64,000 bases of DNA from Desulforhabdus amnigena (GTDB taxonomy: Bacteria; Desulfobacterota; Syntrophobacteria; Syntrophobacterales; Syntrophobacteraceae), in assembly GCF_027925305.1 (NCBI RefSeq), contig NZ_BSDR01000001.1, positions 1,639,001 through 1,703,000 of the forward strand, written 5' to 3'. The stretch's first letter is position 1. Each line of letters starts with the position of its first letter. The translations under genes and the position numbers were made by a program. The notes below the pieces were generated by a model. The model had not been told where the DNA came from and searched no databases. It worked only from the letters and a program-made list of their open reading frames with translations. Positions 5,048 through 20,736 of this stretch are shown piece by piece.

Positions 5048-5286
5048 AAATTCCGTCAAGAAAGGCTGAGCATCTTGCCGATGGCGTCCAATAGTCTTTC
5101 CCAGCTGAAAGGTTTTGAAAGCACCGGGTCGACGCCCCGATCCGAAAGATCTTCATCTTCGTATTGAGTTCCCCAGCCCATGATCAGAATGACGGGAACT
5201 GTAGGGATTTGGGTAGATTGCTTTCTTGCGCAATCACTTTTGCTTTGTGATTTTGTCCTATGTCAAGGACTGACCCCCACCGGCTT
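5048..5286. repeat. 239-bp direct repeat, copy A (kinase 3' fragment plus border motif)
   Basis: Nearly identical and equal in length to copy B at 6322-6560. Read on the minus strand it contains the last 46 or so codons of the receiver domain of the hybrid kinase gene at 16045-18165, including the stop codon, preceded by about 70 bases ending in the border motif TCCTATGTCAAGG(A/G)CTGACC. It is a partial, non-functional copy. With copy B and the intact kinase end it divides the island into two cassettes. Confidence 0.9.
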
Positions 5287-5721: not shown

Positions 5722-6012
5722 TTAATCCGAGCTTTTTTCTACACGATATTTTTTCTTAAATGATTTGTAATATTGTTGTATTTTATTAATAATATCTTGT
5801 TTGATATCTTCATCAATTGTTGCTGGTGAACCAGCAGGTTTAGCATCCCAATTTTTAATGGATGAAGCTTTTATAATTCTTCCACCTGAGAAAAGACCCG
5901 GTTCAAAATCTACCCATACAAGCACAGAAAAATCTCCACTTGTGTATTTTAAAGTCTCTCTATCAACCCATTCGACATAACTGCCATCGTCAAAAGTTTT
6001 CTTTCTTGACAT
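5722..6012 (-). CDS. Small immunity-like protein of an orphan toxin cassette
   Basis: A 96-residue acidic/basic soluble protein without signal or membrane segment. It has a short beta-rich N-terminus (DGSYVEWVDRETLKYTSGDF), then GGRIIKASSIKNWDAKPAG and a C-terminal helix predicted from DEDIKQDIINKIQQYYKSF. The layout (small strand-rich start, xxWD-P segment, terminal helix with II-NKI) resembles Imm74-type immunity proteins of polymorphic toxin systems; this is a resemblance by eye, not a search result. It directly follows a toxin-like fragment (6028-6249) and is A+T-richer than the neighbouring core genes, as expected for exchanged toxin-immunity modules. Confidence 0.5.
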   Translation of the reverse strand: MSRKKTFDDGSYVEWVDRETLKYTSGDFSVLVWVDFEPGLFSGGRIIKASSIKNWDAKPAGSPATIDEDIKQDIINKIQQYYKSFKKKYRVEKSSD

Positions 6013-6027
6013 GTAGACCTCATTAAT

Positions 6028-6310
6028 CTACGGAATGTATCTTATTGAAATATTTCTCCAATTTAATATAGGTTTCTCGATTGTTCTCCAAATGTTACCT
6101 TCTTTGAGTCCAACTTTAACAGCTGTACCTTTAGGTTCTGTTGACATTTGCTGAAAGTTCCACATTTTCAGATAGATGCTTGATCTGCCTCGAAGCGGTC
6201 CTTTCCGGTGCAATGCCTTATGGATTCGATCTCTACGAGAACGTTCCAATCTGAAATGTCAACAGAACCTAGGAGTTTTTTAGGTTCTGATGCAAAAAAG
6301 AGTCGAATGC
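6028..6310 (-). pseudogene. Orphan toxin C-terminal fragment(s)
   Basis: Two overlapping minus-strand frames look coding. One spans roughly 6310-6170 (PKKLLGSVDISDWNVLVEIES...FEADQ). The other ends at 6028 (STEPKGTAVKVGLKEGN...NWRNISIRYIP), 15 bases before the immunity-like gene at 6012. No start with a ribosome-binding site and no complete domain is visible. A truncated toxin end just upstream of an immunity gene is the usual form of an orphan module displaced from an rhs gene. The function cannot be named. Confidence 0.35.
6132..6271. repeat. Perfect 18-bp inverted repeat inside the orphan cassette
   Basis: TAGGTTCTGTTGACATTT at 6132-6149 is the exact complement of AAATGTCAACAGAACCTA at 6254-6271, 104 bases apart, enclosing most of the toxin-like fragment. 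A shorter TTAGGTTCTGATGCAAAAAAG follows at 6280. It may be a small mobile-element end or a duplication scar. Confidence 0.8.
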
Positions 6311-6321
6311 TGGTTGTTGTG

Positions 6322-6560
6322 AAATTGCGTCAAGAAAGGCTGAGCATCTTGCCGATGGCATCCAATAGTCTTTCCCAGCTGAAAGGTTTTGAAAGCACCA
6401 GGTCGACGCCCCGATCCGAAAGATCTTCATCTTCGTATTGAGTTCCCCAGCCCATGATCAGAATGACGGGAACTGTAGGGATTTGGGTAGATTGCTTTCT
6501 TGCGCAATCACTTTTGCTTTGTGATTTTGTCCTATGTCAAGGGCTGACCCCCACCGGCTT
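6322..6560. repeat. 239-bp direct repeat, copy B
   Basis: Same content and length as copy A (5048-5286), with only a few base differences. It carries the kinase 3' fragment and, at 6522-6551, the border motif whose next same-strand copy is at 15997-16026. It separates the orphan cassette from the retron-Rhs cassette and ends 4 bases before the stop codon of the membrane protein at 6565. Confidence 0.9.
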
Positions 6561-6564
6561 GTGG

Positions 6565-6918
6565 CTACCGGAACACAACTAATGGACTCATCAAAATCGT
6601 GGTCCAGAAAAGCATACCGGTCACTAGAGCAAAAGATCCAATGCGACTTAGCCGCTTTTGGATACAGGACGTAGCATCATTATTAGGCAAGCGTGAAATA
6701 ATCAATCCAATGAAGGCCGTTAGGCTGGACAGCATATAGAAGAGAAGCTGTGTGTCTTTCCCAACTGTGATATGGCCGCCTCCACCATATCCATAGAATT
6801 TATACCAAGCCCAAATAACAGCCCAAGTCTGCTCCAACAAGACAGCCCACTGGACGAATGCCGCCGTCACAACCAGGAGCGTGCCAATCAATTCTACAGA
6901 TCGAGTTCTCTTACCCAT
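6565..6918 (-). CDS. Small membrane protein, probable immunity protein for the Rhs toxin
   Basis: A 117-residue protein with three likely membrane helices (about 10-28, 57-76 and 93-113) and a Gly-rich loop (YGYGGGGH) near 43-49. No family is recognised. It begins 15 bases after the rhs stop codon on the same strand, behind a GGGG-type ribosome-binding site, the standard place for a cognate immunity gene. An inner-membrane protector suits a toxin acting on peptidoglycan in the periplasm. The immunity role is inferred from position and topology. Confidence 0.6.
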   Translation of the reverse strand: MGKRTRSVELIGTLLVVTAAFVQWAVLLEQTWAVIWAWYKFYGYGGGGHITVGKDTQLLFYMLSSLTAFIGLIISRLPNNDATSCIQKRLSRIGSFALVTGMLFWTTILMSPLVVFR

Positions 6919-6933
6919 ATGCTGACACCCCTT

Positions 6934-9900
6934 TTAATATACTCTGAGTGTCCCGTAACGAGTAAGCTGCCCTGATGCAGTAGGCCAGAATTTCCACCAA
7001 GGCTTGAAGTTATCAGGGACCTTGTCCGTGTGCTGAGTGTTCTTGATTAAGTTATTGACTTTTTTCCATCCTTCCCAATCCTTAGCTGCAATGCAGCCAA
7101 TTGTTCTGCCAGGATGATGTAATCTGAAGTGGCTCCTACCAGTAGCATCGTCGACATCGTCATACGGGCTGACATCCTCCTTATCGAGTCGATAAAAGTC
7201 TAAACGGCCCTGCCGTTCAAGAATGTTATACGTTCCGTAAGGAATTGGATCACCAAAAGGTTTCCCACCAGACTCAGCTAGTATGGTCACACTGTTGCCC
7301 TTGTCCAAATCGGTAATGGATAGCTGACCAGTAGATCTGTCGTAGCTGCCCAGAACAAAGAGGCCGAGTGGATCAACCGCGTTAATTGGATCATTTTGGG
7401 CATACACATATGGGTTTATCCCCCCCGCCAATCCAATCGGATCCGGCGTCAGATATCTCCCCAATTTGGGATCGTAGTATCGGTTCCAGTTATAATGCAG
7501 CCCGGTTTCTTCATCGTAATACTGGCCGGGAAATCGCAGGTTCATGGGGAGTGTTTTGCCCTTTGGGGCCGAATGCCGATCTTCCACTCCTTCACCGAAG
7601 GGCTTGTATGCCGCGTCCCAGACCAGGTTCCCCCTCTCATCGGTTGCCTTGATGGGAGTGCCCAGGTGATCCGTGTGCACATAGAGCGCTTTTCCCTTCT
7701 CCATGACCGCAAGCAACGTGCTGTTCACGTAAATGTATTCGCGTAGCGTCCTGCCGTTTTTTGCATTCGTCTCCGCCATCAGGCGGCCTTCAAGATCATA
7801 GTGATAATGGGTGGAACCCTTGATCGTTCGCAGGCCGAAACCGTTGTAGACATAGCGGCCGGTCACTTTTCGGTTTTCCGATGCTTCGATCAGCCGGTTG
7901 TTCTCCCCGTAGGTGAAGGTCCTGTTCCCCATGGAAACGATATTGCCGTTGGCGTCGTGAGAAATGTTCAAGGGATTGGCTCCGGTGATGGAGCTCAGGC
8001 GGTTGGTCCCCGGGGTGTAGAGGTAGGCATCGGTATTTTCCCCTTCACGTTCTGTCATCCGGTTGCCCACCCTGTCATAAGCATAGCCGATGGGGCCGTA
8101 GGCCCCCTCGGTATAGGCCAGCCGCTTGAGCCCGTCGTAGCTGAAGGTCTGACTTCCACCGGGTTCCATGTGGTCGGTGATCGATTGAATGCTGCCGGCG
8201 CCGTCGTAATCGTAAGAAAAATCCAGCGTGCCGACCATATTCATCTTTCTGAGCCGGTAGCGCAGGTCGTAGTTCAATGAAAAATCGAGGCCGTTGCCAT
8301 AGGTAAGGGCCGTCATCGGGCCAAAGGGGCGGTAGGAGATGTTGTCGGCCAGTACGTTCATTTCCCGGTCCCGGCTGGTGACCATCCTCACCCTTCCCGC
8401 TTCGTCCAGATCGTAGTCGATTGTTCTGCCGCCCGGGTAGGTGAGTCCGGTGATCAGCCCCGATCCGTCGTAGCGGTATTCGGTAGTGTAAGTGACATTG
8501 CCTATGGTTTTTTCTTCGCGAATAAGATTGCCGAGGGAATCGTAGCCGAACGAATACGTTCCGCTCCCGTCCCGCATTCCCGTCATCCGTCCCCTGCCGT
8601 TCGATCCCTCGTCGTACGAATAGATCACATCGGGATCGTTGGGATAGTCGATTTTGGTGAGCCGGTCGAGAGCATCATACTCGTAGCGAACCGTGACCCC
8701 TTTGGCGTCCGTTTTTGAAACCATGTTTCCCGCCTCGTCGTAGCGATAGACGGTTTTTCCCGTGTCCGGTGAGACGGCGGTCAGCAGGTCCCTGAAATCA
8801 TCGTGATCATAGGTGGTGACATGGCCTTCCGCGTCGGTGACGCCGATGAGATTGTCATGAAGGTCGTAGTGGTATTGAGTAATGGCCGCGCCTTCGTTGA
8901 AATACTCCACGGACTTCAAAAGCCGATCGAGGCCGTCGTATTCGTAACGGGTTTCCCGCCCGTTTTCATCCGTGAGAGCTGTCGGATTTCCATTGGGATC
9001 GTAAATGAAATGCCGGAAGGTTCCGTCCGGATGCCGCAGCCGCTCCAGCCGGTTCCGCCGGTCGTATTCCATGGAGACTTTCCTGACCACAACCCCGCCG
9101 GGATCCAAAATCTCCTCCCCGACCCGGTTGCCTTCGGCATCCAACGTGAAGCGGATTCGATTTCCCAGGGGATCTTCAATTTCCTTCAGCCGGTGTGCCC
9201 CCTCATAGCGAAAAAGAAGAGTACGGCCTTCGGAGTCCCGGCTTCGGATCAGTTGCCCCACCCCATCATAGGAGTAGTGATAAGTCCGGCCGTCGATTTC
9301 TCTCGATTCGAGCCTGCCCCCGGGGGAATAAGAGTACGAGGATACGACTCCGTTTGGGTCCCTCAGCTTCAAAAGATGGCCGCAAGGGTCATAATCGAGA
9401 AACTCGGTGATCCCAGAGGGGGTTATGATCTCATGCAGCCTTCCCCTCTTGCTGCCGTAAGAGGCTTCATTGGGATAATAGGTCAGCCGGGTGATGTCCT
9501 CGACGTCGGTTCTCGGGCCGTCTATCGTGGTGATCTGTCCTCTTTCGTTGTATTCAAAAGTGCTTGTCCTGACCTGCAGCCGGCCGTTCGCATAGCCCTT
9601 CTCAGTCTTTTGGATCACGTTGCCCGCATCGTCGTAACGAAATTCCGTGACTTTGTTCTTGCCGGGAGTATCCACTCCGCTGACAGTGACCGTCAGGGGT
9701 TTTCGAAAAACACCGTGATATGTGTAGCTGGTGGTCCGCTCGACTTCACTATCCTTTGCCTCCGTTTCGGAGAGGATGTTGCCCGACTCATCGTAAGTAT
9801 AGGTGGTGTGATGCCCGCCCGCATCGCTCACGCCGACAAGCTTATGATCTTCCCCATATTGAAAGATTCCGTAAGGGCCGCAGGTGGAACAGCGCCCTCC

Positions 9901-11466
9901 ATTTTCCGAAGCTTCTTCAATGCGGGTTATATAGGCCATGCCGTCTGCGGTTTCCCGGGTGTACACGGATTTTTTGCCCAGAGCGTTCGTAACGAGGATC
10001 TTATCGCCGCCGGAGTAGTCCACATCGATGTGATTTGCCCTGCCCGGTGAGTCCACCCAAATGGCCCGGTCTTCATTGTCGTACCCGAAGGTAAGCCAGC
10101 GGCTGCCATTTTCATCCACGACTCCGGTGAGGTTGTGGCTGTCGTGTGTATCTTCATATAAATACCGTCTCACAGAGGGATTGCCCCCTGAAGGATAGCT
10201 CACGGAAATGAGATTGGGATTCGGGTCGAGAGGATCATCGTAAGTGTAGAGGTATTCTCCGCCTCCGGGGTCGGTTACTTTCCTGATTCGCACGCCGTCA
10301 TATTCGAAACGGATAGATCTGCCGAAGTCGTCCGTGACCGAAGCGAGCCTGCCCGCCTCGAATTGCATGGTGAGCTTATTGCCGGGGGCGTCTCTGATTT
10401 CTAGAAGTTTCCCGTCCAGGCCGAATGTGTAGGTGATCTGTTCGATGGTATGGAACCGAAAGAGGCCGTCCTCCCTGGTGAGGGTATTGTGAACCCCTTT
10501 TGGAGGTGTAAACGTCCCGTCTGCTTCTTCATGGAAATAGATGATCCCCCCGCCTTCCCGCCTCACTCCAACGGGATTGCCGGGAATTATCGACATGTTG
10601 AAATTGTGTGTCCAGCCGTGCCCGAGGGGGCCGCAATAGCCGGTCCGGCTGTTGTAGGTGCGTTGGAAGGTGAGATTCAGCCGGGAATGGATTCCCACGG
10701 CGACGGATGCGAAATCCGTTTCTTCCGAATAGACATTGCCTGTGGCGATATCGATGGGTTCCCCGGCGTTGTTCTGACCGCGGGGAGGCCCGTCTCCCTT
10801 CTGAGGGCCGGGGCCGATGTTCTCGTCCTGCCTACAATCCGACTCGTCTATGGCCTGATCGCAGTCGTTGTCGCGCCCGTCGCATATTTCCGGAGCTCCG
10901 GGGTAAGTGTGCGGATCGTTGTCATCGCAGTCCTCGCAGGGCGTTCTGCAGGAACCGGGTGCATAATGGCCGTCCCCGTCCGCATCCTCGCTCAGGCCTT
11001 CATCCGGTTCCTCGTTGCAATTATTGTCTCTGCCATCGCAGATTTCTTGTGCTCCGGGATGAACTCCGGGGTTTTCATCGTCGCAGTCGTTACCTTGTGG
11101 ACAGTCATCAGTCTTCTCATCATATCCGTCACCGTCTCTATCCTGGCAGGCATCCACGACGGTGATCCTCGTTCTGTCGCTGCATCTGAATTCGGAAGGT
11201 TCTTTTTTGTAGGTGGCCGTGACCCAGAATATTCCTTCCTGGAGCCCAGTGAAGGAGGCGGTGCATCCCGCGCCGTTGAGTCCCGGGGTTTGCGACCACG
11301 AGCACTCTCCCCCCGCAGGGGATGCGGCCGCCTCCAGCAGTATGGTTTCTCCCACGGGAACCGTCTTGGAACCCAAGATATCTACGGTACAGTCCCCCCA
11401 ACCAAAGAGGGTATTCGGATGAATCAAAAGGATCAAAGCAAGGCTCAGAAAAATGTTTTTTTTCAT
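6934..11466 (-). CDS. Secreted Rhs/YD-repeat protein with MopE-like metal-binding stalk and L,D-transpeptidase-like toxin domain
   Basis: 1510 residues. Order: Sec signal peptide (1-22, ends near TLFGWG); Ig-like Cys region (about 25-100); Asp/Cys-rich MopE-type metal-binding repeats (about 105-215: DGDGYDEKTDDC, DNNCNEEPDEG, DGRDNDCDQAIDE); Rhs/YD repeat shell (about 230-1340); the RHS core motif LGRYLTPDPIGLAGGINPYVYAQ and DPLGLF ending at about 1370; then a 140-residue variable C-terminus. That tail has the IPYGTY segment and an HHPGRTIGCIA motif (His 1450/1451, Cys 1458), like the DUF2778/Tlde1 L,D-transpeptidase-type toxins that attack peptidoglycan. It overlaps the TPR gene by 4 bases (ATGA). 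No type VI secretion gene is in view, and the signal peptide implies Sec export. Rhs identity is certain; the toxin activity is inferred from motifs. Confidence 0.9.
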   Translation of the reverse strand: MKKNIFLSLALILLIHPNTLFGWGDCTVDILGSKTVPVGETILLEAAASPAGGECSWSQTPGLNGAGCTASFTGLQEGIFWVTATYKKEPSEFRCSDRTRITVVDACQDRDGDGYDEKTDDCPQGNDCDDENPGVHPGAQEICDGRDNNCNEEPDEGLSEDADGDGHYAPGSCRTPCEDCDDNDPHTYPGAPEICDGRDNDCDQAIDESDCRQDENIGPGPQKGDGPPRGQNNAGEPIDIATGNVYSEETDFASVAVGIHSRLNLTFQRTYNSRTGYCGPLGHGWTHNFNMSIIPGNPVGVRREGGGIIYFHEEADGTFTPPKGVHNTLTREDGLFRFHTIEQITYTFGLDGKLLEIRDAPGNKLTMQFEAGRLASVTDDFGRSIRFEYDGVRIRKVTDPGGGEYLYTYDDPLDPNPNLISVSYPSGGNPSVRRYLYEDTHDSHNLTGVVDENGSRWLTFGYDNEDRAIWVDSPGRANHIDVDYSGGDKILVTNALGKKSVYTRETADGMAYITRIEEASENGGRCSTCGPYGIFQYGEDHKLVGVSDAGGHHTTYTYDESGNILSETEAKDSEVERTTSYTYHGVFRKPLTVTVSGVDTPGKNKVTEFRYDDAGNVIQKTEKGYANGRLQVRTSTFEYNERGQITTIDGPRTDVEDITRLTYYPNEASYGSKRGRLHEIITPSGITEFLDYDPCGHLLKLRDPNGVVSSYSYSPGGRLESREIDGRTYHYSYDGVGQLIRSRDSEGRTLLFRYEGAHRLKEIEDPLGNRIRFTLDAEGNRVGEEILDPGGVVVRKVSMEYDRRNRLERLRHPDGTFRHFIYDPNGNPTALTDENGRETRYEYDGLDRLLKSVEYFNEGAAITQYHYDLHDNLIGVTDAEGHVTTYDHDDFRDLLTAVSPDTGKTVYRYDEAGNMVSKTDAKGVTVRYEYDALDRLTKIDYPNDPDVIYSYDEGSNGRGRMTGMRDGSGTYSFGYDSLGNLIREEKTIGNVTYTTEYRYDGSGLITGLTYPGGRTIDYDLDEAGRVRMVTSRDREMNVLADNISYRPFGPMTALTYGNGLDFSLNYDLRYRLRKMNMVGTLDFSYDYDGAGSIQSITDHMEPGGSQTFSYDGLKRLAYTEGAYGPIGYAYDRVGNRMTEREGENTDAYLYTPGTNRLSSITGANPLNISHDANGNIVSMGNRTFTYGENNRLIEASENRKVTGRYVYNGFGLRTIKGSTHYHYDLEGRLMAETNAKNGRTLREYIYVNSTLLAVMEKGKALYVHTDHLGTPIKATDERGNLVWDAAYKPFGEGVEDRHSAPKGKTLPMNLRFPGQYYDEETGLHYNWNRYYDPKLGRYLTPDPIGLAGGINPYVYAQNDPINAVDPLGLFVLGSYDRSTGQLSITDLDKGNSVTILAESGGKPFGDPIPYGTYNILERQGRLDFYRLDKEDVSPYDDVDDATGRSHFRLHHPGRTIGCIAAKDWEGWKKVNNLIKNTQHTDKVPDNFKPWWKFWPTASGQLTRYGTLRVY

Positions 11467-12845
11467 CTGGGATCGGCCAGTCTTTTTTCCGTCGCCTCTT
11501 TCCAGAATTGAGATTGCACCTTTGCAAAGACTTCACTCGCCTTTTTCATATTTCCCATCTTTTCATATACCAGGCTGAGTTCAGAGAGGGCGTAATCCGT
11601 GTCCTTGTTTTTCGGGTAGAGTCGCAGGAAATTTTCAAGCATTACCGCAGCATCATGATACTGCTCATTTTCCTTGTAGATCTTGGCAAGCCAGAGATAC
11701 GCCTGCGATTTCATGTATCTCATGCTCTTGCCTGCGTCGCTTTCGTCACCCTGTTCATTGAAATCGTTGAGCATTGCCTGTGCAGCATTCTCTGCGATTG
11801 TGTACTGCTCGAGTTCATGAGCCGTCCTGGTGATTTCGAGGTAGGCCTTGAGGGCTTCCTCTGATTGGGGCTGGTTGTCTATGACCTGCATCGCAGCGGC
11901 ATGCCCCGTATGGAACACGGCTTCGGCCATCTGATCCATTCCCTTGAATTTCAGATCTCTGGCGAGATCCAGTTGACTGCGGTAATCGGAAACGCCGTTC
12001 ACCCAGTCGGCGGCCTGTTTCATGAATTCCTTGGACAGCGTTTTGTCTTTCTGCGAAACATAACAGTCCACTATCCTCTGGCAGGCCTTTTGAACAAAGT
12101 AGGTGTTTTTCGGATATCTCTTAATATACATCCCATAGTAGTTGATAGCCCCGGAGTAATCCCTGGCCCTCTGAGCCTCTTTTGCCAGAACGAAAAGAGC
12201 GCGTTGGGAGGAAGTCGAATCTGGGTGATCCTGCACGATGCCTTTGAGGATCTTGAAAGATTCCTCTCTGTCGCCGTATTTGAGGTGGAGCATGGCGTAT
12301 CTGTAGATATCCCTGTCGTCAAAATCGCTTACGGGCAGGCAGGCCATGCGGCTGAGAAGATCTGTTGCGGCGCTGGGGTTCTTTTTGTCCGTGTAGTATT
12401 TCAGGAGGCGGCCGTACGTTCTCAGTACGGCCTTGGTTTGAAGGGACGAGTAGGGAGCATCGATGATTTTCCATTGGATTTTGAGCGCTTCACCGGTTTC
12501 CCCATACCTGGAATAGATGAGGGAGAGCTTTTCCTGGTCTTTCAATTCAAGAGATTCTTCCCGACAATTTGCCCTCAAATGGGTCAGCACCTCTTTTATC
12601 TTCGGAGCTTCCTTTCTCATTGCGTGGATCTTGAGCATCCGGTCATAAACCTTCAAAACGGATTTTGTCTGGTTTGGATCATTGGAAGACCTTTTCAACA
12701 TTTCTCCGTAGATCTGCAGGGCCCGGTCAAAATCACCGGATTTTTCAGCCTGTCGGGCTTCATCTAATGGATGCGCTTGAGCAGAGGAAAAGCCTGAAAA
12801 AATGAGAACAAACAGGATAAAAAACAAAGTGATTTTCACCTGCAT
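11463..12845 (-). CDS. Secreted tetratricopeptide-repeat protein
   Basis: 460 residues: signal peptide (cleavage near SSAQA-HPLDEA), then TPR-like helical pairs across the length (ARQAEKSGDFDRALQIYGEML, YSGAINYYGMYIKRYPKN, YHDAAVMLENFLRLYPKN, DYALSELSLVYEKMGNMKKASEV). Such proteins are periplasmic or outer-membrane scaffolds. The ATG at 12845 shares one base with the TGA of the upstream nucleosidase gene and lies 6 bases after AAGGAG; a GTG at 12848 is the alternative. Its end overlaps the rhs start by 4 bases. The coupling suggests a role in handling the Rhs protein or bridging it to the nucleosidase; this is inference. Confidence 0.8.
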   Translation of the reverse strand: MQVKITLFFILFVLIFSGFSSAQAHPLDEARQAEKSGDFDRALQIYGEMLKRSSNDPNQTKSVLKVYDRMLKIHAMRKEAPKIKEVLTHLRANCREESLELKDQEKLSLIYSRYGETGEALKIQWKIIDAPYSSLQTKAVLRTYGRLLKYYTDKKNPSAATDLLSRMACLPVSDFDDRDIYRYAMLHLKYGDREESFKILKGIVQDHPDSTSSQRALFVLAKEAQRARDYSGAINYYGMYIKRYPKNTYFVQKACQRIVDCYVSQKDKTLSKEFMKQAADWVNGVSDYRSQLDLARDLKFKGMDQMAEAVFHTGHAAAMQVIDNQPQSEEALKAYLEITRTAHELEQYTIAENAAQAMLNDFNEQGDESDAGKSMRYMKSQAYLWLAKIYKENEQYHDAAVMLENFLRLYPKNKDTDYALSELSLVYEKMGNMKKASEVFAKVQSQFWKEATEKRLADPR

Positions 12846-13603
12846 CACCGGCTCCTTCGGGGAAGGTTTGAATGCCCAAGGAATTCCTTTAAAACTTCAA
12901 CACTCTTGTAGTTTACACTTTGAGCCGACCGATCGAAGTGGTCCCGCGCATCGCTGCCGGCCTTGTCGGAAATGATCCTGATGAAGAGGCATGGAATGCC
13001 ATTTTGTATGCATACTTCTTGAATTGCGGCAGCGCCCATGTCCACTGCCGATGCACTGAATTTCTTTCTCAGCCAATCCCTCTTTTCCTTCGCTGCAACG
13101 AATCGATCGCCGGTCAAAATCGTACCGTAGGCGTATCCCCTGGAAGATGCCCAGCCCCCGGCTTCGGCTTCCGCAGGCTTTCCCAGTGTCGGTGGGAGTT
13201 CCCATACGTCCCCATAGGGCTTGGTGACTCCGAAATCATGCTGAAGGGTCCTTTCTGAGACGACCACGCTTCCAACTTCAAGGGATGGATCGATTGCGCC
13301 TGCAAAACCAATGGATACGATCCTATCCACATGGAACCGGCTCGCCAGAAGCTGCGCTGTGATGGCATTGTTCACCTTTCCCATGGGAGAGCGTACCAGG
13401 ACGACTCTCTTGCCCTCCATAATCCCCCTGTAGAAATCCCTTTCAGCCTCATGGAATCTTTGTTCTGTTTTCATGTGGCCCAGGGCTTCCTGCAGTTCTC
13501 CCTGAAGGGTGCAGATCAGGCCTATGTCCGCGGAGGCGAGGCGTGGCACCCATAAAGTTAAAATGATCGCGAAGATGACAGCGGAGGATCTCAAGCCGGC
13601 CAT
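12845..13603 (-). CDS. Exported MTA/SAH nucleosidase-like protein (PNP/UDP phosphorylase superfamily)
   Basis: 252 residues: a clear Sec signal peptide (1-25, ends ASA), then a nucleosidase fold that starts where cytosolic MTAN enzymes start (IGLICTLQGELQEAL). Superfamily landmarks are PMGKVNNAITAQLL, VSIGFAGAIDPSLEVGSVVVS, GTILTGDRFV and IRIISDKAGSDARDHF. Aligned by eye with E. coli MTAN, the Glu12 and Asp197 equivalents are present, but the ribose-binding Glu174 (VEME) is Gly here (VDMG), so specificity or activity may differ. Its start overlaps the reverse transcriptase stop by 13 bases. Export is unusual for this family. The natural substrate cannot be told. Confidence 0.8.
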   Translation of the reverse strand: MAGLRSSAVIFAIILTLWVPRLASADIGLICTLQGELQEALGHMKTEQRFHEAERDFYRGIMEGKRVVLVRSPMGKVNNAITAQLLASRFHVDRIVSIGFAGAIDPSLEVGSVVVSERTLQHDFGVTKPYGDVWELPPTLGKPAEAEAGGWASSRGYAYGTILTGDRFVAAKEKRDWLRKKFSASAVDMGAAAIQEVCIQNGIPCLFIRIISDKAGSDARDHFDRSAQSVNYKSVEVLKEFLGHSNLPRRSR

Positions 13604-14766
13604 GAAATCCGCTCGAAACCGCTGAGAAGTTTATTCCCTTTTTCCCTGTTCACCATTCTTACAAAACTTATCCTGCCCCGAAGCGAGTTCTTGAATCGAT
13701 CGAGTTCCGATACCCCCCATCTTTTCATCTGTTCCTGGATGTCTCCATTCAAGCAATTGTGAATAACGGCCCGGAGGCGTTTGTATTCGTCTCTTTGCGT
13801 ATTTATCTTCCTGTTCACAACTACGCCGGTCAGCTTTTGCCGTCCTCCCTTTCTGGCAATGGCCACCTTTTTCTCGTTCACCTCGAATCCTTCGTCTTCG
13901 ATGATGTGCCTGAAAAATGGAATCCATCTGTTGAAGGTCGGGTCATTGGAAGAAAAGGCGAGGTCGTCGGCATATCTCGAATAATGGAAATCCATCTTTT
14001 GGGCGAGGCCGGCAAACCTTCTATCCATTCTTGAACTCACGATATTCGACAGGTAAGGGCTCGTAGGTGCGCCCATGGGCAGTCGCCCTTTGTAGGTCGA
14101 TAGTTCCGTCAATGCCTCAGCCGTCCCTTCAGGGTAACCAAGGTCCAGATACACCCCTTTCACCCTGGCAAATGTTATGGAAGGGAAAAAATCCTTGATA
14201 TCCATTTTGATGATTATCTCTTGTCCCACATGGTTTTGGGCGTTGCTCACGATGGATCTTCCCCTTCGAAAACCATTTGCACAAGGGTGAACGAAGACCT
14301 TTTCAAGGATCTCGGTGAGTATCCCTTTTTGTATTGCCTTCAATTCGGCTTTGGGAGCGCAAATATGCCTTTTGCCGCCATGGCTTTTGGGTATGTAGAA
14401 CGAGTGGTAATAGCTTTCCTTGTTTTGAATGAGGCGGAGCAGGTTTTCCTTGTCGAGATCCAGGAACCGGGCCAGGTGCGCGATGTTGAATATGAAGGGA
14501 AGGTTCCGATCTAGCATCATTTCCGCGTAGGAAACCAGGAAGGAGAGGCTTCTCGGATCGATATGCCGATTTTGGGAGATGAATTTCCTGATGGCGGCCT
14601 TGTTTGTCGAAAGGGTGAGACTGTCGCTGTAAAATTCTATCTCTTTTGAGCGCTTGAGACACAACCGGGTGTAAGCGCCAAGGAGGTCGATCAGTTCAGG
14701 GGCAGTGCCGGCCCGTTGGTTGATCTCGACCAGGTTTGAAACGAATTCTTCATGGGAACATTCCAC
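13591..14766 (-). CDS. Retron-type reverse transcriptase
   Basis: 391 residues. Palm motifs are ordered: MDIKDFFPSI (188-197), LPMGAPTSPYLSN (about 229-241), catalytic YADD (265-268), and LTG (312-314) where retron enzymes carry VTG. NAQNH at 175-179 matches the retron NAxxH motif of region X. There is no maturase or HNH domain (against a group II intron) and no SQ-type motif 4 (against a diversity-generating retroelement). The GTG start at 14766 follows GGAGG by 7 bases. A structured RNA with retron architecture lies immediately upstream (14793-15034). It would convert part of that RNA into msDNA. The gene leads an overlapping series with nucleosidase, TPR and Rhs genes. Confidence 0.92.
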   Translation of the reverse strand: MECSHEEFVSNLVEINQRAGTAPELIDLLGAYTRLCLKRSKEIEFYSDSLTLSTNKAAIRKFISQNRHIDPRSLSFLVSYAEMMLDRNLPFIFNIAHLARFLDLDKENLLRLIQNKESYYHSFYIPKSHGGKRHICAPKAELKAIQKGILTEILEKVFVHPCANGFRRGRSIVSNAQNHVGQEIIIKMDIKDFFPSITFARVKGVYLDLGYPEGTAEALTELSTYKGRLPMGAPTSPYLSNIVSSRMDRRFAGLAQKMDFHYSRYADDLAFSSNDPTFNRWIPFFRHIIEDEGFEVNEKKVAIARKGGRQKLTGVVVNRKINTQRDEYKRLRAVIHNCLNGDIQEQMKRWGVSELDRFKNSLRGRISFVRMVNREKGNKLLSGFERISWPA

Positions 14767-14792
14767 TGCCCGGCCTCCAATTCTTATAGTAT

Positions 14793-15034
14793 GTCATTGT
14801 TTTTAAAATGGATGAGATCGGTTTCTGTTTGAGGCTTTCCCGAATAAAACCCGGAACCCAGGAACGCTTTTCACGGGGATGCCGTTTCCGATGACTCGAC
14901 AAGGTCACATTTGGCATAATGGATTTTGCTTGAAGACCGTTCCCTGAACGTTTGATGATCATTGACGTGCAAAATCAGCGGATTGGCCTGAAATGCGACG
15001 CGGTCGGTATTTTCAGCTTTTTACGAACAATGAC
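14793..15034 (-). ncRNA. Predicted retron msr-msd RNA
   Basis: On the minus strand a1, GTCATTGTTCGTAAAA (15034-15019), pairs with a2, TTTTAAAAACAATGAC (14808-14793): 9 bp, a 2-base internal loop, then 5 bp. AGC (15018-15016) follows a1 at once, as in known retrons where its G is the branching residue. Downstream are candidate msr hairpins (CGAC-CGC-GTCG near 15006-14996, CGTTC-AGG-GAACG near 14950-14938) and a longer msd-like stem (ATGCC...GGCAT with GTGAC...GTCAT). a2 ends 26 bases before the reverse transcriptase start. No clear promoter was found upstream. The limits are predicted from pairing only. Confidence 0.7.
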
Positions 15035-15096
15035 TCTTCGCTCCAGCTTCAGTGGGAGGAGAGGTCCAGGGATCCTTCTTACCGGAATCACCCGTT

Positions 15097-15159
15097 GCCG
15101 ACCGCGATCACGCGGTCGGCCTGATTGTTTCAAATTGCGCGGATAGCGTAACACTATCC
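15097..15159. other. Two strong hairpins between the retron RNA and the upstream gene
   Basis: A perfect 10-bp stem with an ATCA loop (GCCGACCGCG / CGCGGTCGGC, 15097-15120) and a 6-bp stem (GGATAG / CTATCC, 15141-15159). There is no T-run, so neither is a classic intrinsic terminator. The strand CGCGGTCGG recurs at 15000-15008 inside the predicted msr, so an alternative pairing with the retron RNA is possible. Otherwise 15035-15187 holds no gene. Confidence 0.55.
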
Positions 15160-15187
15160 CAGCCTGAGGCTGTCTAAGAAGGATGCC

Positions 15188-15463
15188 CTAGAAAATGAGG
15201 CTCTCCAAAGCCAAAAAAGGTTTATCCGTTTTGATCGTAAACTCGGGATTGGGAAACGGTATTTGAAGACAGCGAAATCCCTCTGTACAGTCGCGGCAAC
15301 CCATCTCCTCCGTCATTCCGTATCCACAGCTGGAACATCCAGCCGGAAGAAGGCTCAGCGATTTGCACCTCGGGCAGGTCGAACTTCCACTGGACGGCAT
15401 GACGGGAAGCAGCACGCCTGCAATGACAGCCCCGGAAACCTTTATGAAAGTTCTTCGTCTCAA
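15188..15463 (-). CDS. Small protein with twin-arginine-like leader and Cys-pair zinc ribbon
   Basis: 91 residues starting with TTG. The N-terminus MRRRTFIKVSGAVIAGVLLP looks like a Tat or lipoprotein-like export leader. The mature part has CPRC, CSSC and CRDC pairs, fit for one or two metal sites, and a hydrophilic tail. No family is recognised. The ribosome-binding site is weak and the start is uncertain. It stands just upstream of the retron RNA, in the same direction, and could be part of the accessory cassette. Confidence 0.45.
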   Translation of the reverse strand: MRRRTFIKVSGAVIAGVLLPVMPSSGSSTCPRCKSLSLLPAGCSSCGYGMTEEMGCRDCTEGFRCLQIPFPNPEFTIKTDKPFLALESLIF

Positions 15464-15765
15464 AATGATCCCAATCTCTTATGATGTTGCTTCCTCTTGC
15501 ATCAAGCCGGATTTGCCTGAAAAGCGCATCAGTTGAACAGTTGTATCGTCCGATTCGAAAGTTTTCTTTAGGAATTTTTGAGGTACTGATGCAAAAAAAA
15601 AGAGTCGAATGCTGGAACAATGCAGCATTGAAGCTGAACTTGTAAGCCCCAAAGATTGCAATGGCGTGGTGCATTCCCTGGATGACACGGCCAACAAATT
15701 GACTGTGCTCGCAGGACTATTAGAGACCACCATAAGAGGGGACACCCATGAAATTATGTGCTATT
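15464..15765. other. Gene-poor stretch with short coding-like remnants
   Basis: No complete gene is visible. A minus-strand tail (VPQKFLKKTFESDDTTVQLMRF..., ending at 15479) and a plus-strand stretch (15609-15770: HSLDDTANKLTVLAGLLET) both look protein-like but lack starts or partners. The sequence around 15583-15614 (CTGATGCAAAAAA...GAGTCGAATGCTGG) recurs at 6284-6312, beside repeat copy B, and marks shared island-border material. Confidence 0.4.
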
Positions 15766-15988
15766 CCAACAGGATTACCGGAAATTATCGACATGTCGAA
15801 ATTGTGTGTCCAGCCGTAGCCGAGGGGGGCCGCAGTAATCGATCCGGCTGTTGTAGGTGCGCTGGAAGGTGAGATTCAGCCGGGAATGGATTCCCAAGGC
15901 GATGGATGCGAAATCCGTTTCTTCCGAATAGACATTGTCTGTGGCGATATCGATGGGTTCCCCAACGTTTTTCTGACCGCGTAGGGGC
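15766..15988 (-). pseudogene. Remnant of an rhs gene
   Basis: About 223 bases closely match 10567-10792 of the intact rhs gene, the part coding for the start of the YD shell (YSEETDFASVAVGIHSRLNLTFQRTYNSRTGYCG region). Small indels break the frame, and neither start nor toxin end is present. It lies between the retron-upstream gene and the border motif at 15997. It shows that rhs sequence has been duplicated and lost here. Confidence 0.85.
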
Positions 15989-15996
15989 CCACTTTT

Positions 15997-16026
15997 TGAT
16001 TTTGTCCTATGTCAAGGGCTGACCCC
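15997..16026. repeat. 30-base island-border motif, copy C
   Basis: Contains TCCTATGTCAAGGGCTGACC; identical over 30 bases to 6522-6551 and one mismatch from 5248-5277, all in the same direction. An inverted partial copy lies at 45808-45830. Here it immediately follows the 3' end of the intact kinase gene. It may be the end of a mobile element or a recombination site. Confidence 0.75.
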
Positions 16027-16044
16027 TGTTGTTGCGAAATTGCG

Positions 16045-18165
16045 TCAAGAAAGGCTGAGCATCTTGCCGATGGCATCCAATAATCTTTCCCAGCTGAAAG
16101 GTTTTGAAAGCACCAGGTCGACGCCCCGATCCGAGAGATCTTCATCTTCGTATTGAGTTCCCCAGCCCGTGATCAGAATGACGGGGACTTGGGGATTTTT
16201 TGATTTCACCTCCCGGGCGACCTCCCACCCACTGATTTCCGGCATGCCGAGGTCCGTCAGGACGAGATCAAAATCCTGCTCTTGAATGAGTTCAAGCGCC
16301 TTCTTTCCGTCATCGGTGGCAGTGACCTTGTGCCCCTTGAGTCGAATCATATCGCGAAGGATTCCCAAAATTTCCTGATCATCATCCAGGACCAGTATCC
16401 GGTGAGAACGGTCGGTGCCGTTTCTTTTCGAATCGGAAATGACCTTCCTGGCTGTCTCCCCTTTGGGAAGGGTGATGATGAAAACCGTCCCCTTGCCGGG
16501 CTTGCTTTTCACTTGAATCTCTCCACCACATCGGACCACCAGGCTCCATGACACACTCAGCCCCAGCCCTGAGTTTCCGACTCCCTTTGTGGTGTAGTAA
16601 GGATCAAAGATTTTTGAGACCACTTCCTTGCTCATCCCGATGCCGTTGTCGGCCACCTCTATCACCACCGAATCCTTGACCGATTTACAGCGCAGGGTGA
16701 TCGTACCGCCTTCCGGCAGAGCATCGATGGCATTAAAAACAAGATTCGTCAGGACTTCCCGTAAATCCGATGCATGAATGGCGGCAACACAGTTCGTCTC
16801 CAGCTCCATCTGGAACTGAACGGTATGTCCATATTTCTCCATGCCGTTCTTCCACTTGGGCCGCGTTAATTCCACCACATCCTGAACGGCTTCAGCCACA
16901 TCCACTGCATTCAACGCTCCGCGCGTTTCCCGGTCTCTTTCGGTAAATTTCTGCAACCTTCTGATGGTATGAGAACCGTCATGCACCGCCTTTTCTATAT
17001 TTTGCAGGCGAGAGCGTACGTCTCCATCCGTGGTATGGAGCAGGAGCAGCTGGATATGTCCTAAAACGGCCATCAGGAGGTTATTGAAGTCGTGGGCCAC
17101 ACCTCCCGCCATGGTTCCCAAAGCGACCAGCTTCTCCGTTTGCAGGATCTTTTCGGCAAAGGCCTTTTTCTTGGTCATATCGGTGATCATCAGGAGATAC
17201 CCATTCACCGCACCTTGATCATCGGACAATCGAACCAGGTGAACATCGGCCAGGTAGACTTTCCCCTCGCAATTAATCAAAGAAATATCTGTCAATTCTT
17301 CCTGTTCAGACCCTTCCATTTTCTTGAGTATCTTCCCCCAAATGGAGGAGTCCTGGAAGAGAACGGCGGGTGAGCGCCCGATGATTTCCGTAGCGCTTTC
17401 TCCATGCAACCTTTGAAGGCTCGCATTGATTTGTACGACAGACCCCTCGGGATCCAGAAGGCATATCCCCTGGGGAGCCAAATGGATGGCCCGCTCCAGC
17501 ATCGAACTCCTCTCCAACGGGAATCCATCCTTTGAAACAGTACGTTCCACAAGTCTTATCGGCGGTGGCGGTTCCTGAACGACGGCACCCTCGCTCCGCA
17601 ATCCGCCCCTGTGACAAACTCCCAGTAGAATATGTCCGATCAATCTGCTCAATATTTCCCAGTTGCGCTTGAAGGGGGTTGAAAAATGGGTAGGATGCCG
17701 GGTGCTCAAGGTCATTACGCCCACCTCCAGCAGAGGCAGGCACGCAACGCTGACAGGCCTGAAAATGAGGTTCGTCCCGACAAGAAATGAATCTTTTACC
17801 TCCTCGATAAAAACCGCCTTCTGTGTGGAGTAGGTCTTCTCGGCCAGATCCTCCAGCAGAGCACAAGTCAAATGCCCATCTCCATTCGAAGGAGGTTTCT
17901 CATCCAGCAGATCTTCCAGGCTGAACCCACCCGCCGTAGAGAGAGCGCCCTTTTTGTGATCCCAAACAAGAATGGAGCAATTTTCAAAACTGCTTTCCTC
18001 GATAATGACCTGCGCAAATCCCCTGCACGTGCTCTCCAGGCCTTGCTCACCCGACAATACTTCTTCAAAACGTTGGATCATCCCGAGTATCTGAGTCATG
18101 TCCTCTCGCAGGGATTCAAATCTTTTCAGCCCCATCTCGATCACACCCTTAGGCAAGCAATCCAT
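16045..18165 (-). CDS. Hybrid sensor histidine kinase (GAF-PAS-HisKA-HATPase-receiver)
   Basis: 706 residues, no membrane segment, so a cytosolic sensor. A GAF-like region (about 20-190), a PAS domain (about 222-335), the phospho-acceptor His358 in GGVAHDFNN, an HATPase domain (N box LVFNAIDALPEGG, G boxes ADNGIGM and STKGVGNSGLGL-like), then a receiver domain with acidic pocket LDDD, phospho-acceptor Asp638 in LTDLGMPE, and a SKPF lysine. It follows the HDOD gene by 13 bases, probably one operon. Its last 46 or so codons are duplicated twice downstream (copies A and B), which makes its 3' end the apparent insertion point of the island. Confidence 0.93.
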   Translation of the reverse strand: MDCLPKGVIEMGLKRFESLREDMTQILGMIQRFEEVLSGEQGLESTCRGFAQVIIEESSFENCSILVWDHKKGALSTAGGFSLEDLLDEKPPSNGDGHLTCALLEDLAEKTYSTQKAVFIEEVKDSFLVGTNLIFRPVSVACLPLLEVGVMTLSTRHPTHFSTPFKRNWEILSRLIGHILLGVCHRGGLRSEGAVVQEPPPPIRLVERTVSKDGFPLERSSMLERAIHLAPQGICLLDPEGSVVQINASLQRLHGESATEIIGRSPAVLFQDSSIWGKILKKMEGSEQEELTDISLINCEGKVYLADVHLVRLSDDQGAVNGYLLMITDMTKKKAFAEKILQTEKLVALGTMAGGVAHDFNNLLMAVLGHIQLLLLHTTDGDVRSRLQNIEKAVHDGSHTIRRLQKFTERDRETRGALNAVDVAEAVQDVVELTRPKWKNGMEKYGHTVQFQMELETNCVAAIHASDLREVLTNLVFNAIDALPEGGTITLRCKSVKDSVVIEVADNGIGMSKEVVSKIFDPYYTTKGVGNSGLGLSVSWSLVVRCGGEIQVKSKPGKGTVFIITLPKGETARKVISDSKRNGTDRSHRILVLDDDQEILGILRDMIRLKGHKVTATDDGKKALELIQEQDFDLVLTDLGMPEISGWEVAREVKSKNPQVPVILITGWGTQYEDEDLSDRGVDLVLSKPFSWERLLDAIGKMLSLS

Positions 18166-19656: not shown

Positions 19657-20736
19657 CTATTTCTTCCTGCTGCAGGGAAAGCAGAGCAATTCTATCTCGC
19701 TTCCTTTTTCTTCGAGATGGATCGTGGTGATTGTCGCACCGCAGCGTTCGCATACGAGGGGGTCCATGCGGTAGGTGACAGGATTCCAGATGAGGCGGAT
19801 CTGACGGCGCAGTTTGCGATGTTTGACCTCCACCATGAGCTGCACAACGTCTACGAGCAAGCGTGTGGCAGCCCTTGCGGTCACATTCACCTGCACCTGG
19901 TACTTCTGTTCCAGGTCCCGGATCTTGCGCTCCATCTCCAGGGGAAGCTCCCGGATCTTCTCCGTCCTCTCCCGACGCTGCATGTCCGTGAGGTTGGGGT
20001 GGGCAAGACTCGCCTCCATTTCGCTTTTCAGGGCTTCGTAGTATTCGCGGGTGTTCTTCACGTCCCGGTGCAGACGGCGCTCCATGCTGCTGAAAAAGTC
20101 GGCAAGCTCCCTCTGGGTGGCTTCCCTTGCATGGATCATGGCACGGGACAAAGCCTGATCCAGGTGCACCGGAAAATGCGGAGGAACCCTCCCTGCTGGA
20201 AAATAGACGGGATGAAAATCCTTCCATTGCTCTTCCAGTCCTTCCACCGCCGCCCCGCTCCCCTCATGGATCCCCACCTGCACAAGCCCTTCCTTTCGCT
20301 CGTCGCTCAACGCCACGTAATGGCACACGAGCACCATATAAGTGGCTCTGGCCTCCGCCCGGCTACTCACACGCACCGCCGCATTGACCCAGGTGAGGTC
20401 GGTTTCGATAAGCTGATCGAAACCCGCCTTCTTGAGATAAGGCAGCTCGATCTGCCCGTAGACCACCGGGATGTCCCGTGTGGCGAGAGCGATGAGCCGA
20501 TCCAGGAGAGGACTTCCGTAGAGCAGGGGCATCTTTTCGTCTCCCAGCCGCACTTCTTCCGGAACATCCAGAGCTTGGGCCAGATGAGCCGGCAGGAGGA
20601 CAAGAAGCCGTTCTCCCTCCTGTTCGATGACCCCGCCGCTCTTTTCCAGAACGTCCGCCGCAAAAGAGAGCAGCTCCGGGTCCGCCGTACCGGCAATGCC
20701 TGTAACGGTCTCGTTGTTCGCACCTGTATCGCTCAT
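19657..20736 (-). CDS. Helicase-associated protein with C-terminal zinc ribbon
   Basis: 359 residues, unrecognised. A long Glu/Lys/Arg-rich helical stretch (about 190-300, REATQRELADFFSSMERRLHRDVKNTREYYEALK...) predicts a coiled coil. The last 35 residues carry a CERC...CFPC zinc ribbon. The start overlaps the end of the SNF2 helicase gene by 4 bases, so the two are translated together and the protein is probably its partner. The Zn ribbon and coiled coil suit a nucleic-acid-binding or oligomerising subunit. Confidence 0.75.
   Translation of the reverse strand: MSDTGANNETVTGIAGTADPELLSFAADVLEKSGGVIEQEGERLLVLLPAHLAQALDVPEEVRLGDEKMPLLYGSPLLDRLIALATRDIPVVYGQIELPYLKKAGFDQLIETDLTWVNAAVRVSSRAEARATYMVLVCHYVALSDERKEGLVQVGIHEGSGAAVEGLEEQWKDFHPVYFPAGRVPPHFPVHLDQALSRAMIHAREATQRELADFFSSMERRLHRDVKNTREYYEALKSEMEASLAHPNLTDMQRRERTEKIRELPLEMERKIRDLEQKYQVQVNVTARAATRLLVDVVQLMVEVKHRKLRRQIRLIWNPVTYRMDPLVCERCGATITTIHLEEKGSEIELLCFPCSRKK

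Follow-up and report, generated by a model that had tools for sequence, protein, structure and literature searches.

Retron effectors commonly have folds known from nucleotide chemistry, such as those of nucleoside deoxyribosyltransferases (NDT) and phosphoribosyltransferases (PRTase) (PMC12548924). The described systems closest to the locus reported here are types II-A (Ec86/Eco1, with an NDT-like effector) and III (a PRTase and a winged-helix protein), together with type XIII and the other retron classes for which PADLOC holds reverse transcriptase (RT) models. To our knowledge, all retron mechanisms are explained by cytosolic toxins bound to multicopy single-stranded DNA (msDNA). We analyzed a stretch of 64,000 nt from Desulforhabdus amnigena (assembly GCF_027925305.1, contig NZ_BSDR01000001.1, positions 1,639,001-1,703,000; hereafter the window, its genome being G000). 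An operon on its minus strand (6565-15463) comprises, in this order, a zinc-ribbon open reading frame (ORF), a putative retron RNA, an RT, a nucleosidase-fold protein, a TPR protein, an Ig/MopE/Rhs protein, and a membrane ORF.

Like types II-A and III, this cassette combines an RT of the retron clade with an upstream RNA that is framed by the arms a1 and a2 and marked by TTAG and GTAA, and with a nucleotide-chemistry partner encoded next to the RT. It differs from them in that the partners carry export signals, an extra zinc-ribbon gene with a twin-arginine translocation (Tat) signal overlaps the RNA, and genes for TPR and for Ig-domain or so-called X proteins follow. When the cassette proteins were scanned with Pfam, PADLOC, and NCBIfam models, no NDT, PRTase, or winged-helix partner emerged, and the zinc-ribbon, Ig, and X proteins gave no match to PADLOC models. 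In titles and abstracts of the open literature, we found no retron whose nucleosidase is exported or whose partners carry signal peptides. Judged by its RT and RNA, the system would therefore be a retron whose partner set matches no described type, as far as the PADLOC and NCBIfam models and one paper on retrons (PMC12548924) reach.

The RT (13591-14766, minus strand) has 391 aa, including an N-terminal extension of ~90 aa common to its clade. It scored 247 bits against the NCBIfam model of the retron St85 RT (cut-off 235) and almost equally with the PADLOC models RT_III-A (350 bits) and RT_XIII (349 bits). When the RT family profile was compared with the PDB, the best matches were all retron RTs, with Ec86 RT at 1e-61 and group II RTs at 46 bits only. 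The window RT carries the motifs YADD, NAQNH, and LTG; its relatives have VTG or ITG in place of the latter, and two of them show NSxxH. In a tree of 46 RTs, those of the eight loci described below form one clade (support 100/99), so that, despite the near-equal PADLOC scores, they stand apart from the described classes both by their own clade among the RTs compared and by their own partner set. Based on these profile scores, we take the window RT to be a true retron RT. Viral contigs searched with the RT profile contained only distant RTs (≤37% identity), the best plasmid match was 36.5% identical and lacked the N-terminal part, and a nucleosidase-profile search of viral contigs returned no relative. 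As a separate observation, a Gastranaerophilales assembly (L034) contains, in a span of 10 kb, two retron-type RTs (1114-1827 and 10001-10798), which are distantly related.

In the window, the RT gene overlaps the nucleosidase gene (12845-13603) by 13 bases. The TPR ORF (11463-12848) overlaps the latter by 4 bases if a GTG start is used and by 1 base from an ATG at 12845. A further overlap of 4 bases joins the Rhs gene (6934-11466) to the TPR ORF, and 15 bases separate the Rhs gene from the membrane ORF (6565-6918) behind it. The original prediction, made from the letters of the window, had described this minus-strand order with overlaps of 13, 1, and 4 bases and the final 15-base gap, and had assigned the RT to retrons by its YADD and NAQNH motifs; on both points our results agree. 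It had also announced a retron RNA within a range ending at 15034. Such an RNA is indeed part of the operon, and its place is upstream of that range, at 15063-15195. The gene list was incomplete, as it missed the zinc-ribbon ORF at 15188-15463, which belongs to the unit. Because a promoter scan of the cassette gave results at chance level and a terminator scan only slightly above it, co-transcription rests on the gene overlaps.

RT searches provided eight loci for comparison: the window, L013 and L014 (Deltaproteobacteria bacterium assemblies), L041 (genome G005, of the same family as the window genome), L082 (G287), L097 (G456), L098 (G480), and L099 (G499). The gene for the exported nucleosidase directly follows the RT gene in all eight, with an overlap or a gap within ~10 bases. 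A TPR gene comes next in seven, which is every case where the contig allows it, since that of L098 ends inside the nucleosidase gene. Six loci contain the zinc-ribbon gene (window, L013, L041, L098, L099, and, with its end only, L014). An exported Ig-domain protein is encoded after the TPR gene in L013, L014, L082, L097, and L099. Four of these five loci (L013, L014, L082, and L099) also encode an exported X protein, the head of which is NTF2-like (weak match to DUF4878). L041 stops after the TPR gene and lacks a surface-type protein, leaving a minimal set of five elements in ~4.3 kb. Two of the loci show peculiarities: in L097 (4397-4560, minus strand), the last ~12 zinc-ribbon codons (KPHLVLSKLKF*) remain directly before the RNA, while RNA, RT, nucleosidase, and TPR look intact, and in L099 (7485-10880), the TPR and Ig proteins share one frame of 1131 aa, due to either a fusion or a sequencing error.

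The host genes around these loci differ from one locus to the next. Within a 395-genome sample of the phylum, the nucleosidase and the TPR profiles (E ≤ 1e-30) each matched only G000 and G287, and an RT match over the full length (E < 1e-170) was likewise confined to these two genomes. The RT ranking after them (G123, 7e-81) matched only in part, fell outside the clade, and had neither a nucleosidase nor a TPR gene in its neighborhood. Occurrence is rare and patchy: 2 of 56 genomes belonging to the window's class and 4 of 243 in the class of G287 carry the system, as do, in two families, 1 of 93 and 2 of 10 species, respectively. The check suggested along with the original prediction, namely whether nucleosidase-TPR neighbors of RT homologs recur, thus gave a clearly positive answer, and the proposed single unit holds for RT, nucleosidase, and TPR. 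We regard it as very probable that this is a retron genetically tied, in eight genomes or more, to genes for exported partners.

Seven of the eight loci contain an RNA of 129-135 nt, which starts at the stop codon of the zinc-ribbon gene (TTTTGA..., TTTTCTAG in the window). The window RNA (15063-15195, minus strand, 133 nt) is predicted to fold into a terminal stem formed by a1 (15175-15192) and a2 (15065-15082), a conserved msr-type hairpin (15141-15159, GGATAGTGTTACGCTATCC), and a variable msd-type hairpin (15097-15120) with 10 bp in the window. The same parts occur in the other loci: a terminal stem of 13-17 bp, in which the sequence differs and the pairing is kept, a hairpin around TACGCTAT, and a variable msd-like hairpin. 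TTAG with a candidate branching G follows a1 in all seven RNAs, and GTA(A/T) precedes a2 (GTAA in the window). The minimum free energy (MFE) of the window RNA has a z-score of -7.4, with none of 200 shuffles as good, and z ranged from -6.4 to -10.1 in the six RNAs tested. Of 30 predicted pairs, 16 changed on both sides across the seven RNAs. A model that leaves out the window RNA, the most diverged of the set, still finds it with 19.4 bits (E 0.008), just under an overlapping match on the opposite strand, which gives moderate support. No curated Rfam family matched window positions 13400-16200.

The set would add a compact, covariation-supported family of retron RNAs of ~130 nt, and it provides a case in which a translated ORF reaches into a1 of such an RNA. 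Because the zinc-ribbon stop codon overlaps a1, one idea would be that ribosomes finishing this gene could hold a1 open and thereby gate the folding of the template RNA. A search of L082 with the RNA model gave no match; its interval 5830-6270 contains an unrelated inverted repeat (GCTCACAGG/CCTGTGAGC), which may belong to a diverged RNA. Marginal matches of the model lie at G072:C2:129898-129942 (E 1e-4) and G058:C270:9506-9579 (E 0.009), where no RT, nucleosidase, or TPR match is listed.

We next consider export, for which leaders were scored by simple hydrophobicity and a count of cleavage motifs, and not by a trained predictor. Each of the eight nucleosidases is extended before its MTAN-like start by a hydrophobic leader that contains a small-x-small site. 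Leaders are present on the TPR, Ig, and X proteins too, and absent from the RT. The original prediction had assigned Sec signals to three window products; those on the nucleosidase, the TPR, and the Ig/Rhs protein are corroborated by the recurrence of such leaders in the homologous loci. The zinc-ribbon ORF (15188-15463, minus strand, 91 aa, TTG start) is the first gene of the unit and has homologs in the same place. It starts with a Tat signal (RRRTFIK) followed by CxxC...CxxC. All five complete zinc-ribbon proteins share a twin-arginine start (RRxF), CxxC...CxxC, and, close to a C-terminal end resembling LxxLxF, an [IV]PF stretch that contains proline. From these signals, the working end of the retron appears to lie in the cell envelope, a placement that we did not find in the literature for any retron.

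The nucleosidase-fold protein (12845-13603, minus strand, 252 aa including the signal peptide) matches PF01048 (1.7e-39) and scores above the NCBIfam cut-off for methylthioadenosine/S-adenosylhomocysteine (MTA/SAH) nucleosidase (MTAN, Pfs). Its family profile matches MTANs of the PDB at 4e-41, with ~30% identity in the fold match, and a Foldseek search gave E 3e-16 with a moderate model (predicted local distance difference test score, pLDDT, of 63). The pocket is altered: VEME, which contains Glu174, reads VDM[GS] in all eight proteins, replacing the glutamate by Gly or Ser, and the equivalent of Glu12 is kept only in the window and absent from the other seven. The Asp197 equivalent is invariant within the motif R.I[ST]D.A, and the equivalents of Met173 and Arg193 are retained, so that the purine-side residues stay. 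As to their roles, we take Glu12 and Glu174 to be catalytic or ribose-binding and Asp197 to protonate the purine. The nucleosidase-like protein of the original prediction thus has the MTAN fold, but because Glu174 is missing in all eight, it may depart from ordinary MTA/SAH nucleosidases: its substrate would either differ on the sugar side or be bound and not cleaved.

Compared with MTAN, the retron-linked protein has the same fold and keeps Asp197, and it is set apart by its signal peptide, VDM[GS], the loss of Glu12 in seven of eight cases, and motifs of its own (RSPMGKVNN and QHDFGxxKPYG). It would therefore represent a nucleosidase-fold family with an altered pocket. The known immune effectors of the purine nucleoside phosphorylase (PNP) superfamily act in the cytosol. 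They belong to the same superfamily (PADLOC 'Effector, PN-superfamily', to which the window protein has a weak match of 36 bits, and ATP nucleosidases); the retron-linked protein differs from them by its signal peptide and its tie to a retron.

The TPR protein of the window (11463-12848, minus strand, 461 aa with signal peptide) is shorter than its relatives. The gene behind it (6934-11466, minus strand) encodes a protein of 1510 aa with a signal peptide, which over its first ~110 residues resembles the L013-type protein in its Ig head (37%, 2e-13). Behind this head lie MopE motifs, YD/RHS repeats, an RHS core, and a Tlde1-like end with HHPGRTIGC, the latter at 27 bits and thus below the cut-off of 30.1; a PDB search with the C-terminus gave nothing meaningful. 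The domain matches agree with the earlier assignment as an Rhs protein with YD/RHS repeats and core domain. The claim that Rhs and an immunity gene are part of the unit was not upheld: Rhs repeats occur at this place in the window only, none being present in the translations read from the other loci, in five of which the exported Ig-domain protein recurs instead. The repeats, the core, the candidate variable C-terminal domain, and a small membrane gene thereafter resemble an Rhs polymorphic toxin with a Tlde1-type tip, from which the window protein, the only one of its kind among the eight loci, differs by an Ig and MopE head shared with the Ig protein of the retron cassette.

Since the Ig head is shared with the L013-type protein and the Rhs parts lie behind it, the window probably holds a variant of a conserved exported protein whose tail has given way to an Rhs toxin carrier. 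The X proteins likewise have ~130 aa in common and differ beyond. From these comparisons, we infer that the last genes of the cassette are exchangeable tails. In an AlphaFold prediction for the Ig protein of L013, the first half shows Ig-like beta domains and the second half is unusable. The membrane ORF (6565-6918, minus strand, 117 aa) has no family match and is a possible Rhs immunity gene by its position and hydrophobic segments. Elsewhere in G000, a second Rhs locus is found (C1:1779334-1781340, open frame of 2478 aa).

In a genome of the same genus, the histidine-kinase and folC genes that flank the cassette in the window are adjacent, with no cassette between them, and thus represent an empty site. 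Three copies of the kinase 3′ end, 94-98% identical, frame a ~10.7 kb insertion in the window, all on the minus strand: one is the 3′ end of the flanking kinase gene itself (16028-16198; 96% to 6313-6484; single copy at the empty site), one lies on the other side of the cassette (6313-6560), and the third is located before folC (5048-5286; 98% to 6322-6560). The empty site, the direct repeats, the differing host-gene contexts, and the patchy presence make it likely that the cassette is mobile and accessory, in the manner of defence systems. No integrase was seen at the cassette. The insertion also contains, between the kinase and zinc-ribbon genes, a 226-bp Rhs fragment (15765-15990) with 90.7% identity to the part of the Rhs gene coding for DUF6531 (10567-10791), which is presumably the remnant of another Rhs copy. 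A 96-aa ORF without family match lies between two repeat copies (5722-6012, minus strand) and is possibly an orphan immunity gene.

Based on these observations, we propose the following model. The template RNA and the RT should make msDNA in the cytosol, like other retrons. The obligate partners would leave the cytosol, the zinc-ribbon protein by its Tat signal, and the TPR protein and the MTAN-fold protein, which would bind or cleave nucleosides, by their Sec signals. In most cases, modular proteins that are likewise exported would follow, with variable tails behind Ig or NTF2-like heads; in the window, one of them would have become an Rhs toxin carrier. The RT-RNA-msDNA particle would serve as a sensor or lock and the effector arm would act in the envelope; it is possible that the state of msDNA or RT controls the synthesis or release of the envelope-acting proteins, as the original prediction suggested. 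Overall, a new type of retron on a mobile cassette of ~10.7 kb, with an exported effector arm and a likely anti-phage or self-killing role, explains the data best, and we give it an even chance of being right. For an envelope-acting defence function, we put the chances somewhat below even. Slightly more tentative still is the specific form in which a cytosolic RT-msDNA particle governs an exported complex of zinc-ribbon, nucleosidase-fold, and TPR proteins with swappable tails (Ig-type, NTF2-type, or Rhs-toxin), so that phage infection would be answered in the envelope.

Several findings weigh against this model. We see no mechanism that would let msDNA in the cytosol act on proteins that are exported, and the nucleosidase-fold protein, with Glu174 replaced throughout and Glu12 mostly lost, may not be an enzyme. 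The gap between RNA and RT is ~300 bases in the window compared with ≤ ~50 in the other loci carrying the RNA. In L082, neither a recognized template RNA nor a zinc-ribbon gene precedes (5830-6270) an otherwise complete RT-nucleosidase-TPR-Ig-X set. Finally, the loci adjoin housekeeping genes and not obvious defence islands.

The alternative that survives best, which we nevertheless consider unlikely, uses export as the antitoxin: the nucleosidase-fold protein would be a cytosolic toxin removed by Sec export, and a phage that attacks export or the RT-msDNA particle would leave it in the cytosol, where it would kill the cell. The usual nucleotide-chemistry folds of retron effectors, the position of its gene next to the RT, and the superfamily match to a PADLOC defence effector fit this scenario, yet it leaves the export of the TPR, Ig, X, and zinc-ribbon proteins unexplained, and the active-site glutamates are missing. 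That loss, combined with the retained purine-side residues, would suit a catalytically dead periplasmic receptor for nucleosides or nucleotides that reports inward to the retron together with the TPR protein. We find such a receptor improbable, since the Asp197 equivalent is invariant and the conserved set has no transmembrane signaling part. No more probable is a non-defence system in which the display of surface proteins, for adhesion or inter-bacterial competition, would be under the control of the retron or marked by it, the Rhs form of the window being a competitive use: the Ig-type exported proteins, the Rhs/Tlde1-like tail, and the adjoining housekeeping genes speak for it, while the patchy, horizontally inserted distribution is typical of defence and the minimal L041 unit lacks a surface-type protein. 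A chance neighborhood of an ordinary retron and unrelated exported genes may hold for the locus-specific Rhs protein, the only point in its favor, and is so improbable for RT, nucleosidase, and TPR that we reject it there, given that the gene order is the same at eight loci whose chromosomal surroundings differ, that the RTs form a single clade, and that the profile matches in the 395-genome sample are confined to genomes with the RT.

If the proposed extracytoplasmic retron is real, its obligate exported partners would force a new mechanism, either a cytosolic RNA-DNA particle that speaks to the envelope or export serving as an antitoxin, and the minimal set of the L041 type makes the question testable in a laboratory host. 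Near the cassette, the window also encodes an SNF2-type helicase of 794 aa (20733-23117, minus strand), which is possibly related to DNA repair or defence.

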